Origin: Sphaerisporangium krabiense
GTDB lineage: Bacteria; Actinomycetota; Actinomycetes; Streptosporangiales; Streptosporangiaceae
Direction of reading: 5' to 3'
Length of the DNA stretch: 64,000 nucleotides
Assembly (NCBI RefSeq): GCF_014200435.1
Contig: NZ_JACHBR010000001.1
Location: forward strand, 2,294,001-2,358,000
Below are positions 23,191 through 31,040 of the stretch, piece by piece. How positions within the stretch are numbered: the stretch's first letter is position 1; each line of letters begins with the position of its first letter. The position numbers and the translations under genes are program-made. Under the pieces are notes generated by a model. The model searched no databases and was not told where the DNA came from. It saw only the letters and a program-made list of their open reading frames with translations.

Positions 23191-23284
23191 CGAGCCCCGG
23201 GGACCGGAATTCGGCTAACCTCGCCTGGTCCCCGCACATGCCAGGCGCTTCGCCGCGTCCCGGCCCTTCCGAAAGGTGTGTTCG

Positions 23285-24115
23285 TTGATCGGCTGGTTCG
23301 AGGCGCTCGTGCTGGGGGTGGTGCAGGGGCTGACGGAATTCCTGCCGATCTCCTCCAGCGCGCACATCCGGGTGGTGTCGGCCTTCTTCGGCTGGAAGGA
23401 TCCCGGGGCCGCGTTCACCGCGGTCATCCAGCTCGGCACCGAGGCCGCCGTGCTCATCTACTTCCGCCACCGCATCTGGGACATCGTCTCCACCTGGGCC
23501 CGCTCGCTGGGGAAGCCGGACCTGCGGGCGGAGCCCGCCGCCCGCATGGGGTGGTACATCATCGTGGGCAGCATCCCCCTCGGCGTCGGCGGCGTGATCT
23601 TCAAGGAGCAGATCGAGACCACCGTGCGCGACCTGCGCCTCGTCGGCACCTGCCTGATCGTCTTCGGCCTGCTGCTCGCGGTCGCGGACCGCATGGCGCG
23701 CAACGAGCTGACCCTGGACAAGAACCTCAACACCCCGCACGCGCTGACGTACGGCCTCGCGCAGGCGCTGGCGCTGATCCCGGGCGTGTCGCGCTCGGGC
23801 GGCACCACCGGCGCGGGCCTGCTGCTCGGCTACCGGCGCGAGGAGGCGGCCGAGTACTCGTTCCTGCTGGCGATCCCGGCGGTGCTGGGGTCCGGGGTGT
23901 TCGAGCTCTTCAAGATCGGCGACGGGGAGACGACGCCGAACTGGGGCCCGACGATCCTCGCCACGATCGTGTCGTTCGCGATCGGCTACGCCGTGATCGC
24001 CTGGCTGATGCGGTACATCAGCACGCACCGTTTCACGCCGTTCATCATCTACCGGGTCGCCCTCGGCCTCGTGGTCATCGCGGCCGTGAGCTTCGACCTC
24101 ATCCCGGCGATCTAG
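23285..24115 (+). CDS. uppP: Undecaprenyl-diphosphatase (BacA/UppP)
   Basis: 276 aa. A TTG start at 23285 is preferred: GAAAGG (23271-23276) lies 8 nt upstream, while the in-frame GTG at 23276 would overlap that site. The polytopic protein removes a phosphate from undecaprenyl diphosphate to recycle the lipid carrier for wall synthesis. Both catalytic signatures are present: GLTEFLPISSSAHI near the N-terminus and ALIPGVSRSGGTTGAGLLLGYRREEAAEYSFLLAIPAV in the second half, with the Glu and Arg residues in place. Its partners here may be the LCP and acyltransferase genes, although they are not linked directly. Confidence 0.96.
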   Translation: MIGWFEALVLGVVQGLTEFLPISSSAHIRVVSAFFGWKDPGAAFTAVIQLGTEAAVLIYFRHRIWDIVSTWARSLGKPDLRAEPAARMGWYIIVGSIPLGVGGVIFKEQIETTVRDLRLVGTCLIVFGLLLAVADRMARNELTLDKNLNTPHALTYGLAQALALIPGVSRSGGTTGAGLLLGYRREEAAEYSFLLAIPAVLGSGVFELFKIGDGETTPNWGPTILATIVSFAIGYAVIAWLMRYISTHRFTPFIIYRVALGLVVIAAVSFDLIPAI

Positions 24116-24205: not shown

Positions 24206-25168
24206 ATGAAGGCCCGTATCGCGGGCGTCGCGGCGTACCTGCCGGAACGCTCCATGACCAGCGACGAGGTCGAGTCGCGGATCGAGGGTTACGTCCCGTA
24301 CCGCGGGGTCATCGAGCGCATGACCGGCATCAGGCGGCGGCACCTCGCCGCGGACGACGAGCAGGCGTCCGACCTCGCCGTCGCCGCCGTGCGCCGGCTC
24401 CCCGAGCCCGGGGAGCCCGACCTGCTCATCTTCGCGTCCGCGTCGCAGGACATGGTCGAACCGGCCACCGCGCACATGGTGGCGGCCAAGCTCGGCCTGT
24501 CCTGCCCCGTCTTCGACGTCAAGAACGCCTGCAACAGCCTGCTGAACGGCATCCAGGTGGCCGAGGCGCTGATCCGCACCGGCGCCCACCGCACGGTCCT
24601 GGTGTGCAGCGGCGAGCTGCCCTCCCGTGCCGTGCGGTGGCGGGTCGAGAGCCGGGCGCAGTTCGCCGACGCCTTCGCCGGGTACACGCTCTCGGACGCC
24701 GGCGCCGCGGTGCTGGTCACCGCCGACCCCGGCCGGGGCATCTTCTACCGCGCCTTCGCCGCGGACTCCACGGCCTGGTCGGCGGGCACGCTGCCCGGCG
24801 GCGGCTCGGCGCACCCGCGCGACCCCGAGTACACCTACTTCCGCGGCGACGGGCGCCGGCTGAAGGAGGCGTTCGAGCTGGCCGGGCCGGACCTCTTCCT
24901 GACGGCGCTCAAGCGCACCGGCCTGACCTGGGATGACTTCTCCGTCGTGGCCGTACACCAGGTGGCGATGCCCTACCTCGACGTGCTGGCCCAGGCCCTC
25001 GGCATCCCCGGCGACCGGCTGGTCGTGACGCTGCCCGAGCACGGCAACTGCGCGTCGGCCACGCTGCCGCTCCAGCTCGCGGCGGCGGGCGCCGGGCCGG
25101 GCGACCGGGTGGCGCTGCTCGGGCTCGGCGGCGGCATCAGCCTCGGCGTGCTGTTCGCGGACCTGTGA
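24206..25168 (+). CDS. KAS III/OleA-like thiolase-fold condensing enzyme
   Basis: 320 aa, ATG 24206 after GGGGGGCG. The thiolase-fold triad is intact: Cys109 in VKNACNS, His251 in VVAVHQVAMPY and Asn281 in EHGNCASATLPLQL. The C-terminal LLGLGGGISLGVLF matches FabH-like proteins. FabH enzymes start fatty acid chains; OleA homologues instead join two acyl chains head-to-head to give a 2-alkyl-3-ketoacid. The downstream OleC- and OleD-like genes make an OleA-type role more likely than housekeeping FabH, whose usual partners (fabD, acpP, fabF) are missing. It opens a tightly packed five-gene unit; TAGATT at 24156-24161 could be its -10 element. Confidence 0.87.
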   Translation: MKARIAGVAAYLPERSMTSDEVESRIEGYVPYRGVIERMTGIRRRHLAADDEQASDLAVAAVRRLPEPGEPDLLIFASASQDMVEPATAHMVAAKLGLSCPVFDVKNACNSLLNGIQVAEALIRTGAHRTVLVCSGELPSRAVRWRVESRAQFADAFAGYTLSDAGAAVLVTADPGRGIFYRAFAADSTAWSAGTLPGGGSAHPRDPEYTYFRGDGRRLKEAFELAGPDLFLTALKRTGLTWDDFSVVAVHQVAMPYLDVLAQALGIPGDRLVVTLPEHGNCASATLPLQLAAAGAGPGDRVALLGLGGGISLGVLFADL

Positions 25169-25178
25169 GGACGGACCG

Positions 25179-25925
25179 ATGGACCTCTGGGTGATCGTCC
25201 CCGCCTACGACGAGGCGAAGGGGATCGAGGCGACGCTGCGCGCGCTCGAGGACCAGGACGACCGCGCGTTCACGCTGGTCGTGGTCGACAACATGAGCAC
25301 CGACGGCACCGCCGAGGTCGTCCGCGCCTACGCCGCGGGCTCCTCCCTGACGATCGAGATCGTCACCGAGCGGCGCAAGGGCACGGGGGCGGCGTCCGAC
25401 ACCGGCATGCGGCACGCCATCGCGCGCGGCGCCACCCACCTGCTGCGCACCGACGCCGACTGCCTGCCGCGGCGCGACTGGGTGCGTGCCATGAAGCGCG
25501 GGTTCGCCGACGGCCTGGAGATGGTGGGCGGCCTGCTGCGGCCCCGCACCGACGAGTTCCGGCTGAAGTTCTGGGAGCGGTGGCTGCTGCCGTCCGTGGT
25601 GGAGGCGGCGGCGCTGTTCGGCCGCCTGCGCCCGAGCAACCGCGGCGCCTACCTCGGGCCGTACGTCATGATGCCCGGCGCCACCGTGGGCATCACCGCG
25701 GCCCTGTACGAGCGGGCGGGCGGGTTCCCGCGCACCGCGATCGAAGAGGTCCACGAGGACCGCGCCCTGGTCAACCGCGTGCGCGCGATCACCCGCGCCT
25801 ACGGCACCCGGCGGGACGTCGTGGTGTACGGCTCGGTGCGGCGACTGCGCGCGTACGGGCTGGCGGGGACGCTGGCCTGGTACGCCGACCACCACTACCG
25901 GCCCGAGGTGGTCGACGTCCGGTGA
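25179..25925 (+). CDS. Family 2 glycosyltransferase in the beta-lactone-like cluster
   Basis: 248 aa, ATG 25179, 10 nt after the condensing-enzyme stop, with GAGGACGG as the ribosome site. GT-A fold landmarks are WVIVPAYDEAKGIEATLRAL at the start, VVVDNMSTDGTAEVV (nucleotide-sugar Asp), the LLRTDADCLPRRDWV DXD-type motif at about residues 90-104, and a later EVHEDRALVNRVRA segment with the catalytic-base-like ED. There is no clear membrane anchor. In this operon it may glycosylate the lipid product or an intermediate; it could also be a polyprenyl-phosphate sugar transferase. Confidence 0.88.
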   Translation: MDLWVIVPAYDEAKGIEATLRALEDQDDRAFTLVVVDNMSTDGTAEVVRAYAAGSSLTIEIVTERRKGTGAASDTGMRHAIARGATHLLRTDADCLPRRDWVRAMKRGFADGLEMVGGLLRPRTDEFRLKFWERWLLPSVVEAAALFGRLRPSNRGAYLGPYVMMPGATVGITAALYERAGGFPRTAIEEVHEDRALVNRVRAITRAYGTRRDVVVYGSVRRLRAYGLAGTLAWYADHHYRPEVVDVR

Positions 25926-27079
25926 GGCCCCGTGACGCGGGGCGGGCGATGGCCGCCGAGCGGCGGCTCTACCTGGCCGCCCATCCGGTCGCCTATCCCC
26001 TGGTCCGCCTGCTCGCCCGGTTCGGCCCGGTGGTGCGGGTGCCGGGGCTCGGGGTGGTGGTGAACGACGCCGCGACCGCCCGCGCGGTGCTGACCGACCC
26101 GCGGTTCCGCAAGGACGGGCCCGGCTCACCCGGCGACCTGTGGACGCCCGTGCTCGGGCCGTCGGTGCTGCTCAACATGGAGGGCGAGGCGCACGCGGCG
26201 CTGCGGCGCAGGCTCGCCCCGCTGTTCACGCCCGCGCACGTCACGGCGCTGGTGGACGACGTGCTGGCCGGGCCGCTGCGCGACCTGTCGGAGCGGCTGG
26301 CGCGCGGCGCGACCGTGGACCTGGTGGACGAGATGCGGCTGATGGCGGGGGCGGTGATCTGCCGGCTGATCGGCATGCGCGAGGTGCCGGCACGGGAGGC
26401 GCGGTCGCTGTTCGCCGACGGGGAGCGGGTCGCGTCCATGATCTCACTGCGCTCCCGGCGGCTGACGGACCGGCAGGTCGCCGTGGCGCGCCGGGTGCTG
26501 GACCGGGTCGGCGCCATCGCGGTGGACGCCTACGCGAAGGGCGACGCGGCGACGGTGATGGGGCGCATGCGGGCGCTCGGGCTGTCGGAGGCCGAGGCGC
26601 GCGGCGCGGCGGGCGCGTTCTTCCTGACCGGCACCGAGACCGTCGCGACGTTCGTCCCGAGGCTGGTCGCCCTGCTGCACGACTCCGGCACGCCGGTCGA
26701 GGCGCCGGAGGACCTGGACCGGGTCGTCGAGGAGGCCATGCGGGTGACGACGCCGACGCCGGTCATGCTGCGCTCGGTGGCGGCGCCCGCCCGGGTGGGA
26801 CGGGTCCGGGTGCGCCCCGGGGACCGCGTGGTGATCGCCACGCACAACTGCGCCCGCGCCTACGGCCCGTTCGACCCGGCGGCCGAGCACCCGGCCGAGC
26901 TGCGGCGGCTCTGGTTCGGGGCGGGGCCGCACTTCTGCGTCGGCCATCCGCTGGCGATGGCGGAGATCCGGGCCGTGGCCGGGACGGTGCTGGCCCACCG
27001 GCCGCGAGTGGTCGGCCGTGAGGTGGCCCGGGGCGTGCTCATCCCCACCTATCGACACCTGTGGATAACTTGTGGATAA
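25922..27079 (+). CDS. Cytochrome P450 with unusual I-helix, beta-lactone-like cluster
   Basis: 385 aa from GTG 25922, which overlaps the glycosyltransferase stop (GTGA); ATG 25949 is the alternative. P450 landmarks are EAMR (K-helix ExxR) and the heme loop FGAGPHFCVG (Cys near residue 338). The I-helix reads GAFFLTGTETVATF, where the usual A/G-G-x-D/E-T proton-relay motif appears as TGTET. At 385 aa it is a little short for bacterial P450s, mostly at the N-terminus. No ferredoxin or reductase gene is nearby. Overlaps at both ends show it is translated as part of the cluster; a hydroxylation or desaturation of the lipid product is likely. Confidence 0.88.
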   Translation: MRPRDAGRAMAAERRLYLAAHPVAYPLVRLLARFGPVVRVPGLGVVVNDAATARAVLTDPRFRKDGPGSPGDLWTPVLGPSVLLNMEGEAHAALRRRLAPLFTPAHVTALVDDVLAGPLRDLSERLARGATVDLVDEMRLMAGAVICRLIGMREVPAREARSLFADGERVASMISLRSRRLTDRQVAVARRVLDRVGAIAVDAYAKGDAATVMGRMRALGLSEAEARGAAGAFFLTGTETVATFVPRLVALLHDSGTPVEAPEDLDRVVEEAMRVTTPTPVMLRSVAAPARVGRVRVRPGDRVVIATHNCARAYGPFDPAAEHPAELRRLWFGAGPHFCVGHPLAMAEIRAVAGTVLAHRPRVVGREVARGVLIPTYRHLWITCG

Positions 27080-27090
27080 CGTGTGGACAG
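27060..27090 (+). repeat. Three DnaA-box-like 9-mers in 11-bp phase
   Basis: TGTGGATAA occurs at 27060-27068 and 27071-27079 and TGTGGACAG at 27082-27090. The first two are perfect complements of the classic DnaA box TTATCCACA; the third differs from the actinomycete box TTGTCCACA at one base. All face the same way at exactly 11-bp spacing. They overlap the last codons of the P450 and the first codons of the AMP ligase. Confidence 0.6.
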
Positions 27091-28673
27091 GCGACGTCGT
27101 GGGCGACGTCCTCGACGGGCCGGGGCGCAACGGCCAGGCCGCGATCATCGACGGGCGCGGGCGGACGCTGCGGTACGGGGAGCTGCGCCGCCGCGTCCAC
27201 GCCGTCGCCGGGGCCATGGCCGGCCTGGCGCCCGGCGAGGCGGTGCTGTTCGCCGTGCGGCCGGGGCCGGACGCCGTCGTCTGCGCGCTGGGCGCGGTCG
27301 CGGCGGGCGGCATGCTCGTGCTGGCCGACCCCGGGCTCGCCCCCGCCGTGGCCGCCGCACGCCTGAAGCTCGCCCCGCCGCGCTGGGTGGTCGCCGACTC
27401 CCTGGTCTACACGCTCGGCGGCCCGCTGCGCGCCCTGGCCGCCCGTCGCGGCCTCCACCTCCCGCACCTGCGCGACCCCGTGCCGGGCCGCCCGGTGCGC
27501 CACTTGTACGCGGGCCCCTGGCTGCCGGGCGTGCCCCGCGGGGCGACCCGCCTGCGCTCCCTCGGCGCGGCGGACCTCTCGTCCGGCCGCCTGCCGCACC
27601 TCGCGGCACAGGATCCGGCCGGCCCGGGTGCCCTCGGACCGGGCGCGCCGGAGGCGCGCGAACCGTCCCACGCGGCGCAGCCGGCCGTCGTGGCCTTCAC
27701 CTCGGGGACCACGGGGCGGCCGCGCGGGGTCGTGCACACGCGCGGATCGCTGGCCGCGGGGTCGGCCCTGTTCCGCGCCGCCGTCCCGCTGGCGGACGGC
27801 GACGTCGTCCACACCGACCAGCTCATGGTGGGCCTGCCCGCGCTGGCGGCCGGGGCCACGTGGTCGCTGCCGGGCCCCGGTCCCTGGGCGGCCGAGCTGG
27901 CCGCGCGCGGGGCGACGCACGCCTTCCAGGTGCCCGTACGGCTGGACCGCGACCTGCGCGACGCCCCCGCGCTGCCCCGGCGGCTGCGCTGCCTGCTGCT
28001 CGGCACGGCGCCCAGCCCGCCCGCCGTGCTGCGCCGCGCCCGGGACGCCGCGCCGCACGCCGAGATCCTGTCGGTGTACGCCCTGACCGAGGCGCTGCCG
28101 GTCGCGGTCGCGCGCGCCGAGGACAAGCTGGCCTGCCCGGAGGGCGATCTGCTCGGCACGCCGCTGCCCGGCGTACGGACACGGATCGCGGGCGACGGGG
28201 AGCTGTTGGTCTCGGGGCCGCAGCTCGCCCGCGGCTACCTCGGCGAGCCGCCGCTGCGCGAGGTCGCGACGGGCGACCTGGTCCGCCTCGACGCGCAGGG
28301 GCGGCTGGTGCTGCTCGGCCGCAAGAAGGACATGCTGCTCAGGGACGGCGTGAACATCTATCCGGGCCTGTACGAGCCCGCGATCGGCGCGCTGCCGGGG
28401 GTGGCGGAGGCGGCGATCGTCGGCGTGCCGGACCCGGAGACCGGGGACGAGGAGGTCGTCCTCGCCGTGGTCCCCGGGCCGGGCTTCGACGCGGGGGCGC
28501 TGCGCCGCGCGCTGCCGGGTGTCGTGGACGCGGGGGCGCTGCCGGACCGGGTGGCGGTGCTGGAGGACTTCCCGCGCGGCGGCCGCACCGGCAAGCTCGA
28601 CCGCGCCGCCCTGCGGGCCGCCGTGGCGGGGCAGGAGACGCGGGTGCCGCCCGATGCCGGTGGCGCGGGATGA
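27072..28673 (+). CDS. OleC-like AMP-dependent ligase (candidate beta-lactone synthetase)
   Basis: 533 aa from GTG 27072, overlapping the P450 stop by 8 nt; GTG 27081 is equally possible. ANL motifs are the P-loop FTSGTTGRPRGVVHTRGS (about residue 210), YALTEALPVAVA at the A5 position (about 335), ATGDLVRLDAQGRLVLLGRKKDM (A7-A8 hinge), VNIYPGLYEP and the catalytic Lys in GGRTGKLDR. The TEALPV version of the A5 motif and the size match OleC, which closes 2-alkyl-3-hydroxyacids to beta-lactones using ATP, better than CoA ligases. The OleD-like partner directly follows. An ordinary acyl-AMP or acyl-CoA ligase remains possible. Confidence 0.8.
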   Translation: MDNVWTGDVVGDVLDGPGRNGQAAIIDGRGRTLRYGELRRRVHAVAGAMAGLAPGEAVLFAVRPGPDAVVCALGAVAAGGMLVLADPGLAPAVAAARLKLAPPRWVVADSLVYTLGGPLRALAARRGLHLPHLRDPVPGRPVRHLYAGPWLPGVPRGATRLRSLGAADLSSGRLPHLAAQDPAGPGALGPGAPEAREPSHAAQPAVVAFTSGTTGRPRGVVHTRGSLAAGSALFRAAVPLADGDVVHTDQLMVGLPALAAGATWSLPGPGPWAAELAARGATHAFQVPVRLDRDLRDAPALPRRLRCLLLGTAPSPPAVLRRARDAAPHAEILSVYALTEALPVAVARAEDKLACPEGDLLGTPLPGVRTRIAGDGELLVSGPQLARGYLGEPPLREVATGDLVRLDAQGRLVLLGRKKDMLLRDGVNIYPGLYEPAIGALPGVAEAAIVGVPDPETGDEEVVLAVVPGPGFDAGALRRALPGVVDAGALPDRVAVLEDFPRGGRTGKLDRAALRAAVAGQETRVPPDAGGAG

Positions 28674-28704
28674 GGCCAGGGCCGGGGACGCGGGGTGGCG
28701 TGGG

Positions 28705-29652
28705 ATGAAGGTGGTGGTGACGGGCGCGTCGGGGTTCGCCGGGGGCGTGGTGGTGCGCGCGGCCGTGGCACGGGGGTGGCGGGTGCACGCCTTCGGGCGG
28801 CGGGCGGCGTCCGGGATCGGCGCGGGACCGTTCGGCGACCTGGTGCGCGCGGGCACGGTGCCGTACCGCTCGTGGGACGTCACCGCCGACGCGCCCGGCG
28901 ACCTGCCCGAGGTGGACGCGGTGATCCACTGCGCGGGCACGGTGACCGACTGGGGCCCGGCCAGGGAGTTCGCGCGGGTGAACGTGGCCGGCACCGCCCG
29001 GGTGCGCCGGGCGTTTCCCGGCGTGCGGTTCGTCCACGTCAGCACGGCCAGCGTGTACGACCCGTTCCGGCCGACCGTGATGGCCCGCGAGCACGATCTC
29101 CCCGCCCGGCGGTACGCCAACGCCTACGGCGCGTCCAAGGCCCGCGCCGAGCGCGCGGCGGGCGCGGACGCGATCGTCCTCAGGCCGCACGCGGTGTACG
29201 GGCCCGGCGATCCGACGCTGCTGCCCCGGGTGCTGGGCGCGGTGCGCGGGAGGCGTCTGTGGGCGGTGGGCGACGGGCGCCAGCGTGTCAGCCTGACCTC
29301 GGTGGCCAACCTCGCCGAGGCGTGCCTTCTCGCGGCGTCCGGGCCGGTGGAGCGAGGGGTCTTCAACATCGCGGACGCCGAGCCGGTGGTGCTCGACGAC
29401 GCGCTGCGCTGGATCCTGCGCGAGCGCGGCATCGACGCCGAGCCGTCCTACCTGCCCGCCGGGCTGGTGACGCCGGTGGCCGGGGTCATGGAGGTCGCGT
29501 TCCGCCTCCTGCGCCGTCCCTCGCCGCCGCGTCTGACCCGCTACGCGGCCGGCCACCTGGCCGTGGAGCGCACGCTGGACATCTCCGCCGCGCGGGAGCT
29601 TCTCGGGTACCGCCCGTCGCCGACCTCGTTCCACGGGGCCGCGGCGTGGTGA
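28705..29652 (+). CDS. OleD-like NAD(P)-dependent 3-beta-hydroxysteroid-dehydrogenase-fold reductase
   Basis: 315 aa, ATG 28705, 31 nt after the ligase stop with a weak ribosome site. This is an extended SDR: Rossmann VVVTGASGFAGGVVV, DAVIHCAGTVTDWG, VHVSTASVYD, and the catalytic YGASK (Tyr near 140, Lys near 144). LRPHAVYGPGDPTLLPRVL and the C-terminal LTRYAAGHLAVERTLDISAARELLGYRPS are hallmark OleD/3-beta-HSD segments. OleD reduces the 2-alkyl-3-ketoacid from OleA to the 3-hydroxyacid used by OleC. It ends the five-gene cluster. A nucleotide-sugar epimerase role is less likely because of the C-terminal pattern. Confidence 0.85.
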   Translation: MKVVVTGASGFAGGVVVRAAVARGWRVHAFGRRAASGIGAGPFGDLVRAGTVPYRSWDVTADAPGDLPEVDAVIHCAGTVTDWGPAREFARVNVAGTARVRRAFPGVRFVHVSTASVYDPFRPTVMAREHDLPARRYANAYGASKARAERAAGADAIVLRPHAVYGPGDPTLLPRVLGAVRGRRLWAVGDGRQRVSLTSVANLAEACLLAASGPVERGVFNIADAEPVVLDDALRWILRERGIDAEPSYLPAGLVTPVAGVMEVAFRLLRRPSPPRLTRYAAGHLAVERTLDISAARELLGYRPSPTSFHGAAAW

Positions 29653-29864: not shown

Positions 29865-31040
29865 GTGTCCGATCTGCCCCAGCTGCCGTTCCCGCGGCGC
29901 ACCCGGCTGGAGATTTCGCCGAAGTTCCGCGAGCTGCGGGCCACCGCGCCGATCATCCGCGTGCGCACGACCACGGGCGACGAGGCGTGGTTCGCGATGA
30001 GCTACGACGTGGTGCGGACGCTGCTGGGAGACGACCGGTTCGGGCGCACCCATCCGGATCCGGAGAACGCCCCCCGCGTGTCCCACGCGGTGATCGCGGG
30101 CGTGCCGCGCGGCGGTTTCGAGACCGAGAAGGCCGACCACGAGCGGATGCGCAAGCTGCTCACGCCCGCCTTCTCGGCGCGGCGCATGAGGCTGCTGAGC
30201 GGCCACGTCCAGGACATCGTGGACGAGCTCCTCGACGAGCTCGCCGCCAAGAAGCCTCCCGCCGACCTGCACGCGCACCTGTCCGTGCCCCTGCCCGCGC
30301 TGGTGATCTCCGAGCTGCTCGGCGTGCCCCGCCAGGACCGCGAGCGCTTCGGCGTGCTGGCCGAGGCGATGACCGACATGTCGGCATCAGGAAAGGCGCA
30401 CGCGGCGCTGGAGGAGCTGAGCGGCTACATCCACGAGCTCATGGTCGACAAGCGCCGCCACCCGGCCGAGGACGTGTTCTCCGACCTGGCGACGATGGAG
30501 GCCGACGACCAGGAGATCGCCGAGCTGGGCGCGATGCTGCTGTTCGCCGGCCACGAGACCACGGTGAACCGCATCGACCACGGCGTGGCGTACCTGCTCA
30601 CCAACCCCGACCAGCGGGACGCGCTGGCCGCCGACCCCTCCCTCGTGCCGGCGGCCGTCGAGGAGATCCTGCGCATGTCGGCGCCGTCCGACCTGGGCGT
30701 GACCCGGTGGGCGCGGACGGACGTCGAGATCGGCGGCGTCACGATCCGCAGGGGCGACGCGGTGATCGTCGGCACCATGGCCGCCAACCGCGACGAGGGC
30801 GTCTTCCAGGAGCCGGACCGGTTCGACGTCCACCGGCACGGCGAGGAACCGCACCTGGCCTTCGCGCACGGCATGCACTACTGCATCGGGGCCAGCCTCG
30901 CGCGGGTGGAGCTGCGCAGCGTGTTCGGCACGCTGTTCCGGCGGTTCCCTGCCCTGGAGCTGGCGGTGCCGCTGGAGAGGATCCCGGTCAGGACCGACCG
31001 CGCGACCGGCGGCTTCGCGGAGATGCCCGTCGTCTGGTGA
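29865..31040 (+). CDS. Cytochrome P450, CYP105/107-like
   Basis: 391 aa from GTG 29865, with GAGGAGAGGGG 8 nt upstream; the longer frame (from 29775) lacks a site. The I-helix LLFAGHETTVNR has the usual AG-x-E-T, ExxR is EILR, and the heme loop is FAHGMHYCIG (Cys near residue 340), with Ala in place of the first Gly of FGxGxHxCxG. HERMRKLLTPAFSARRM is the normal C-helix. It has its own AT-rich promoter region and follows the beta-lactone-like cluster by 212 nt, so it may or may not belong to that pathway. No redox partner gene is adjacent. Confidence 0.93.
   Translation: MSDLPQLPFPRRTRLEISPKFRELRATAPIIRVRTTTGDEAWFAMSYDVVRTLLGDDRFGRTHPDPENAPRVSHAVIAGVPRGGFETEKADHERMRKLLTPAFSARRMRLLSGHVQDIVDELLDELAAKKPPADLHAHLSVPLPALVISELLGVPRQDRERFGVLAEAMTDMSASGKAHAALEELSGYIHELMVDKRRHPAEDVFSDLATMEADDQEIAELGAMLLFAGHETTVNRIDHGVAYLLTNPDQRDALAADPSLVPAAVEEILRMSAPSDLGVTRWARTDVEIGGVTIRRGDAVIVGTMAANRDEGVFQEPDRFDVHRHGEEPHLAFAHGMHYCIGASLARVELRSVFGTLFRRFPALELAVPLERIPVRTDRATGGFAEMPVVW

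Follow-up and report, generated by a model that had tools for sequence, protein, structure and literature searches.

Beta-lactones inhibit enzymes covalently, and an anti-obesity drug derives from one of them, lipstatin (PMC7064751). The gene set closest to the one studied here was described by Smith et al. in 2020 (PMC7064751): according to the available part of that paper, Actinoplanes atraurantiacus carries genes for OleA, a glycosyltransferase, OleC, a cytochrome P450 and OleD without OleB, and a hydroxylated, glycosylated beta-lactone was predicted as their product. Here we analyse a cluster of five genes at 24206..29652 of a 64,000-nucleotide stretch of the Sphaerisporangium krabiense genome (the window, meaning that whole stretch). 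The cluster belongs to the kind published for A. atraurantiacus, which is still uncharacterised. A first-pass annotation of this DNA had not recognised the combination as described; that view was wrong, since the gene set and the same predicted product had been published in 2020 (PMC7064751). No other description of the set was found in the literature searched, outside which most subscription papers lay and more descriptions may exist.

A five-gene cluster with a predicted Ole-derived pathway

The cluster consists, as the first-pass annotation had it, of five head-to-tail open reading frames. All lie on the plus strand, and coordinates and Pfam matches agree for all five. They encode a ketoacyl synthase (KAS) III, a family 2 glycosyltransferase (GT2), a P450, an ANL ligase and an extended short-chain dehydrogenase/reductase (SDR), separated in turn by a 10-bp gap, a 4-bp overlap, an 8-bp overlap and a 31-bp gap; start codons were picked by eye, and alternative starts are possible.

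24206-25168, plus strand: KAS III, putative OleA type; 320 aa; E85-P86, C109, H251, N281; Pfam ACP_syn_III/_C
25179-25925, plus strand: GT2 glycosyltransferase; 248 aa; DxD motif D92/D94; Pfam Glycos_transf_2
25922(GTG)-27079, plus strand: cytochrome P450; 385 aa; heme Cys339, ExxR E271/R274; Pfam p450
27072(GTG)-28673, plus strand: ANL (AMP-forming) ligase; 533 aa; groups beside OleC; A4 loop shortened; A10 Lys508; Pfam AMP-binding/_C
28705-29652, plus strand: extended SDR, probable distant relative of OleD (2-alkyl-3-oxoalkanoate reductase); 315 aa; Y141/K145; Pfam Epimerase

We judge it about an even prospect that these genes encode an Ole-derived pathway to a hydroxylated, glycosylated beta-lactone that is kept as such without OleB. 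The KAS would join two acyl-coenzyme A (CoA) molecules by a non-decarboxylative Claisen condensation into a 2-alkyl-3-oxo acid, with C109 as acyl carrier and E85 as base; the SDR, acting as an OleD, would convert this into the 2-alkyl-3-hydroxy acid, whose carboxylate the ligase would adenylate before closing the beta-lactone. The P450 would hydroxylate one of the chains, the GT2 would glycosylate the new hydroxyl, and in the absence of OleB the lactone would be retained. The observations behind this proposal are the gene set and its conservation, the hallmark residue of OleA in the KAS, the kinship of ligase and SDR, and a genome in which neither OleB nor OleC was matched.

The condensing enzyme is probably of the OleA type

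In a PDB-profile alignment (3row), E85-P86 of the window KAS fall on Glu117-Pro118 of OleA, where two FabH-like structures show Phe-Pro. According to the available part of PMC7064751, Glu117 is essential in Xanthomonas campestris OleA, and Glu117 followed by Pro occurs in all but two OleA of that paper's alignment; X. campestris numbering was obtained here with an offset of 14, derived from C143 and E117 of the paper. Across 77 aligned KAS, Glu-Pro stands at this column in all 41 from five-gene clusters, in 14 of 15 from the ole group (the other has a gap) and in 3 of 3 from loci resembling the lipstatin and nocardiolactone clusters (lst/nlt-like), and in 0 of 18 other KAS III (17 differ, one has a gap). 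The KAS of 40 further loci from two families all carry it (40/40). The first-pass annotation had correctly picked out C109, H251 and N281, which align with C143, H285 and N315 of X. campestris OleA; this Cys/His/Asn set is not specific to OleA and is also found in other KAS III. E85, P86 and C109 are kept in 103 of 103 sequences and N281 in 102, the deviating one being a remnant (L042; L and G numbers are our handles for loci and genomes). These and the other catalytic-residue counts below, apart from those of the 40 further loci, include the window sequence, and 11 loci are counted twice.

In a KAS tree built by a quick method, with long branches flagged, the 41 cluster KAS and seven ole-group KAS form one 48-row clade with a Shimodaira–Hasegawa-like approximate likelihood ratio test (SH-aLRT) support of 99. 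Six of the seven adjoin genes for OleC, OleD and OleB; the seventh, in L044, lies close to the end of its contig, and none of these genes adjoins it in the available stretch. Eight classical OleA form a separate clade outside the cluster KAS, so the tree does not show kinship of the cluster KAS to classical OleA. The Glu-Pro pair, together with nearest non-cluster relatives that sit in oleA-C-D-B clusters, nonetheless supports the assignment of the cluster KAS to the OleA type, as the first-pass annotation had read it.

The ole clusters with a KAS inside this clade lie at L043:6578-19468 and in L204-L207, all in the order A-C-D-B, and in L215 with the order A-B-C-D. All of them adjoin a large gene resembling a type I polyketide synthase (a label given by eye).

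The ligase groups beside OleC

In a careful tree of ligases, a branch with support 100/99 separates 13 cluster and 11 OleC rows from 14 CoA-ligase-like and three other ANL rows; an earlier quick tree gave the same cluster-plus-OleC branch at 99. The rows were thinned from the 62 of a three-group tree, which alone could not place the cluster ligases nearer OleC or CoA ligases and to which other ANL rows were then added. Long-branch rows of the quick tree (an adenylation domain of a non-ribosomal peptide synthetase (NRPS) and a 587-aa ANL protein of L147) were excluded. The CoA-ligase rows are 14 of the better non-cluster matches to the window ligase, from six Nonomuraea genomes, a choice that works against a grouping with OleC. 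By this tree the ligase lies beside, but outside, the OleC clade: it forms a clade of its own and does not qualify as an OleC by the curated models NF006754 and NF045786.

The spacer between motifs A3 and A4 (T214-G261) divides the families in the same way. Its length is 46 aa for 30 of the 31 cluster ligases (50 in L153) and for 16 of the 17 OleC (48 in L211), compared with 52-55 aa in 14 of 14 CoA ligases and 52-53 aa in five further ANL rows, two of which are the same gene. Among 25 more rows, seven were incomplete and 13 had 46 aa, all of OleC type except L143, a partial cluster ligase. This shortened spacer, which lacks an FH segment and is present in the window ligase, is a feature shared with OleC that was found in this analysis and not taken from the literature.

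The motif TEALPV, on which the first-pass annotation had based an OleC-like ligase, is present at residues 339-344. Its T, E and P are not diagnostic, because some CoA ligases carry TETSPV; the placement beside OleC stands and membership of the OleC clade does not. Residues 342-343 read LP, FP or VP in 31 of 31 cluster rows and LP or MP in 15 of 17 OleC rows, while in the CoA ligases position 342 holds S, A, G or T or is gapped, and P343 is found in 8 of 14. Conserved columns are mixed: 19 are common to cluster and OleC ligases only, 13 to cluster and CoA ligases without OleC, and 10 to OleC and CoA ligases with the cluster differing. Lys508 is kept in 95 of 95 sequences. A single regular expression for motif A8 matched in 0 of 40 loci and was not useful.

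The reductase, the tailoring enzymes and the missing OleB

Two OleD models lead the matches of the SDR (122.9 and 114 bits, cut-offs 580), followed by HpnA at 52.6. With the first of these, NF042422, the OleD of L043 scores 354.9, likewise below the cut-off of 580. The SDR is probably a distant relative of OleD, in keeping with the earlier call of an OleD-like protein. Its Tyr141 and Lys145 are kept in 97 of 97 sequences. The DxD motif of the GT2, whose solved relatives in a PDB search are only distant, persists in all 97 rows with a letter there, and E193 in 92 of 98. The heme Cys of the P450 is kept in 139 of 139 sequences, upstream paralogues included, and in 39 of 39 from the 40 further loci; the I-helix E239 is kept in 134.

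Searched with the OleB of L043, the window's own genome gave no match at E<=1e-20 (38 of 39 candidates scored), and the first-pass annotation had seen no OleB in the cluster; the L043 query replaced an Abhydrolase_1 search, whose 70 matches in that genome were uninformative for OleB. Nor did an OleC model match there at E<=1e-60 (5 of 79 candidates scored). Over 60 genomes the OleB query found some match in 28, with at least 50% identity in three, one of which is the query's own genome, and a strong OleB (E<=1e-50) occurs in just 3 of 37 named cluster-bearing genomes. Beside the cluster itself an OleB was matched in a single one of 80 loci (L072, upstream, at 26%) and in 0 of 40 further loci, so that OleB is not part of the conserved cluster in relatives.

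Conservation and rearrangement of the cluster

Among 60 genomes, the window's own included, full-length KAS orthologues of at least 69% identity were found in 11 others; each of these loci has the complete set in order, with the SDR split in two pieces in L037. A wider KAS scan of named genomes confirmed 325 relatives, and the following counts refer to the best 80 of these 325. KAS-GT2-P450-ANL-SDR stand on one strand in 71 of 80 loci, a retention of order which argues that the arrangement is not due to chance. The nine exceptions comprise five Nonomuraea loci with KAS-P450-SDR only, two incomplete sets on short contigs (L052, L083), L073, where the ligase keeps its position but is encoded on the opposite strand, and L086, from a metagenome-assembled genome, where KAS is the only one of the five. 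Any further gene family is limited to at most 37 of the 80 loci. At L042:9943-10532 we observed a remnant in which KAS residues 1-150 are joined to SDR residues 257-304, apparently by an internal deletion.

Across the class, a GT2 profile matched 13 of 296 genomes (E<=1e-20), among them the window's own; it also matched 42 of 150 genomes (E<=1e-30) of the Micromonosporaceae, the family of Catellatospora, and 65 of 297 genomes of family f20, presumably Streptomycetaceae; the centres of both family samples were chosen as, or known to be, cluster carriers. For each family we read 20 regions, one per genome, drawn from the 42 and the 65 matched genomes respectively. Since these 40 loci were picked by GT2, they are uninformative on gene sets without it. 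All five genes are present in 39 of them, with no SDR detected in L272 (KAS-GT2-ANL-GT2-P450). The order is KAS-GT2-ANL-P450-SDR in 27 and that of the window in four; eight differ from the 27 by an additional GT2 ahead of the P450.

Natural fusions join GT2 to P450 in L148 and GT2 to the ligase in L147, and a BrkB/YihY membrane domain is fused to the GT2 in L150 (by Pfam) and in L278, L280 and L282 (by scripted calling). Genome G284 (L146, L147) has the set split into KAS-[GT2-ANL] and GT2-P450-SDR, each with its own GT2, and in L149 KAS-GT2-P450-ANL occurs with no SDR called alongside.

In the window, the unit is flanked by a BacA-like gene upstream (23276-24115) and a second P450 downstream (29865-31040), which together accompany it only in six same-genus loci (L031-L036) among the mapped loci. 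We considered the second P450 as a member of the unit and rejected it, because in the mapped loci it lies behind the cluster only within the genus; its top NCBIfam match is pentalenolactone synthase (403.9 bits, cut-off 700). In many loci of Actinomadura, Actinocorallia and Catellatospora (for example L092:7614-8810), a divergently transcribed P450 that belongs to the family of the cluster P450 lies upstream of the KAS; of the 114 members of this family in the 80 loci, 35 are on the minus strand.

A Nonomuraea variant with a relocated ligase

In the five Nonomuraea genomes with KAS-P450-SDR, a ligase orthologue (54-68% identity by piece) is encoded elsewhere, whereas no GT2 orthologue was found in them (best E 9e-8); N. 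dietziae has a GT2 at 74%. The ligase thus stays in the genome without adjacency to KAS-P450-SDR, and the GT2 can be lost. In each of the five the ligase occupies the same locus, where it follows an ATP-grasp-like gene and a gene that encodes a protein of about 358 aa (L125-L129, for example L129:5587-9196). This protein gave no Pfam match (L129 copy), and a PDB profile of all five copies returned only E>=0.054; it was not found in 18 other cluster-bearing genomes tested, and of 296 genomes of the family two encode it, both among the five Nonomuraea. The ATP-grasp label comes from one PDB match of the L129 copy (3df7, E 6.9e-6), for which Pfam gave no ATP-grasp domain and only a sub-threshold Glyco_transf_4 (21.6 bits, cut-off 28.5); we liken the gene to the PRK06849 family. 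Three of the five KAS form a clade in the KAS tree. The five genomes are probably close kin, so that loss of the GT2 and relocation of the ligase were likely one event, and this variant may carry a changed head group.

Weighing the predicted product

Several points weigh against a beta-lactone from an Ole-derived pathway. The literature found assigns no product to the five-gene set, and in the available part of PMC7064751 the A. atraurantiacus OleA hydrolysed p-nitrophenyl hexanoate while the recoverable protein condensed no acyl-CoA tested. Among curated models the window ligase matches NF004837 best, a generic family of long-chain acyl-CoA ligases (146.5 bits, cut-off 476); with the OleC-type model NF006754 (cut-off 478) it scores 96 bits, compared with 534 for a true OleC of the same genus (L043), and its C-terminal domain retains the CoA-ligase motif KDM...NIYP, which OleC has lost. 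Given these ligase features and its place outside the OleC clade, ring closure to a beta-lactone is plausible but unproven. The same features suit an open-chain glycolipid, which we regard as a serious though minority possibility: KAS and SDR would make a small mycolate-like 2-alkyl-3-hydroxy acid, the ligase would activate it as acyl-AMP or acyl-CoA for transfer to a different group with no ring formed, and GT2 and P450 would tailor it into a surfactant-like or membrane lipid. Such a conjugating role would also suit the five Nonomuraea ligases, with their ATP-grasp-like and 358-aa neighbours and no GT2 found, and hydroxy-acid surfactants are one product class of OleA-initiated pathways in the available text of PMC7064751. 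The shortened A4 loop and the supported branch common to the ligase and OleC argue for the ring instead.

The KAS raises a further alternative, an ordinary FabH-type starter enzyme that serves, with a CoA ligase, another lipid or polyketide outside any Ole pathway. Its top PDB matches by sequence are annotated as 3-oxoacyl-acyl carrier protein (ACP) synthases (4ryb), and a FabH-like model scores it at 151.6 bits against 139.8 for NF006720, which we take to be an OleA-type model; both scores are below cut-off (285 for NF006720). The KAS of the complete same-genus ole cluster L043 scores alike (137.9 FabH-like, 134 OleA-like). Set against E85-P86, absent from the other KAS III, the seven ole-group KAS within the cluster clade, and the kinship of SDR and ligase to OleD and OleC, this alternative seems improbable; the ligase falls on the OleC side rather than with ordinary CoA ligases, and the KAS with those of ole clusters rather than with FabH. 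Still less credible is an olefin pathway finished by an OleB encoded elsewhere. A genome of the same genus (G001) does hold a five-gene cluster plus a separate oleA-C-D-B cluster, but OleB went unmatched at E<=1e-20 in the window's own genome, and strong OleB (E<=1e-50) is limited to 3 of 37 named cluster-bearing ones. The beta-lactone proposed in the first-pass annotation therefore keeps its OleA-type KAS, its OleD relative and its lack of OleB, with the lactone itself unproven. In outline, the cluster would work like an Ole-type line of condensation, reduction and activation with oxidative and sugar tailoring and a putative lactone end; the catalytic steps and their succession, the sugar, the acyl chains and, most of all, a ligase reaction ending in the lactone are predictions from sequence.

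We also advance, tentatively, a broader reading in which these clusters make a widespread and unrecognised class of actinobacterial lipids, with a 2-alkyl-3-hydroxy acid core built by KAS, P450, SDR and an OleC-sister ligase family and with an exchangeable polar head. Usually the head would consist of one or two sugars from GT2 enzymes, some of them anchored in the membrane or fused to P450 or ligase; in one Nonomuraea lineage, where the GT2 was lost, the ATP-grasp-like and 358-aa proteins now encoded beside the ligase might add something else, perhaps an amino acid. With a GT2 found in 42 of 150 and 65 of 297 genomes sampled from two actinobacterial families, this compact cassette of five genes is a cheap and testable target, and a ligase beside OleC would reveal which sequence changes mark lactone closure as opposed to acyl-CoA formation.

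Comparison with known systems

The oleABCD systems of Xanthomonas and Micrococcus resemble the window in the Glu-Pro of OleA, an OleD-like reductase and a ligase that in the window lies beside OleC; the window differs in having no OleB match, a ligase outside the OleC clade, and an added GT2 and P450. With the lst/nlt (lipstatin, nocardiolactone) clusters it shares a KAS, OleC-like and OleD-like proteins and the lack of an adjacent OleB in the loci seen. Two such loci, L209 and L210, which we take to be nocardiolactone-like and lipstatin-like from gene content rather than from a named record, each contain a pair of KAS genes and a ligase that falls within the OleC clade, whereas the window has one KAS and a ligase outside it. 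Both also encode OleD, and L210 contains a 1062-aa NRPS-like gene.

As described in the available part of PMC11427300, CysF of the cystargolide pathway is, like the window ligase, an adenylate-forming ANL-type enzyme similar to acyl-CoA synthetases, and it closes a beta-lactone; it differs in its substrate, a small malate-type ester. The HMGL-type clusters of Acetobacteraceae, which lack an OleC homologue in the accessible text of PMC8776678, represent a different gene set.

The A. atraurantiacus cluster, likened here by its described gene content, has the same five kinds of protein, no oleB and the same predicted product as the window. If its published list is in gene order, it reads KAS-GT2-ANL-P450-SDR, the order of 27 of the 40 loci in two families, whereas in the window the P450 precedes the ligase (KAS-GT2-P450-ANL-SDR). 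To this known kind of cluster our analysis adds a wide distribution, two gene orders, the placement of the ligase, the fusions and the change in Nonomuraea; the wider distribution, fusions and split forms are absent from the part of the PMC7064751 account available to us.

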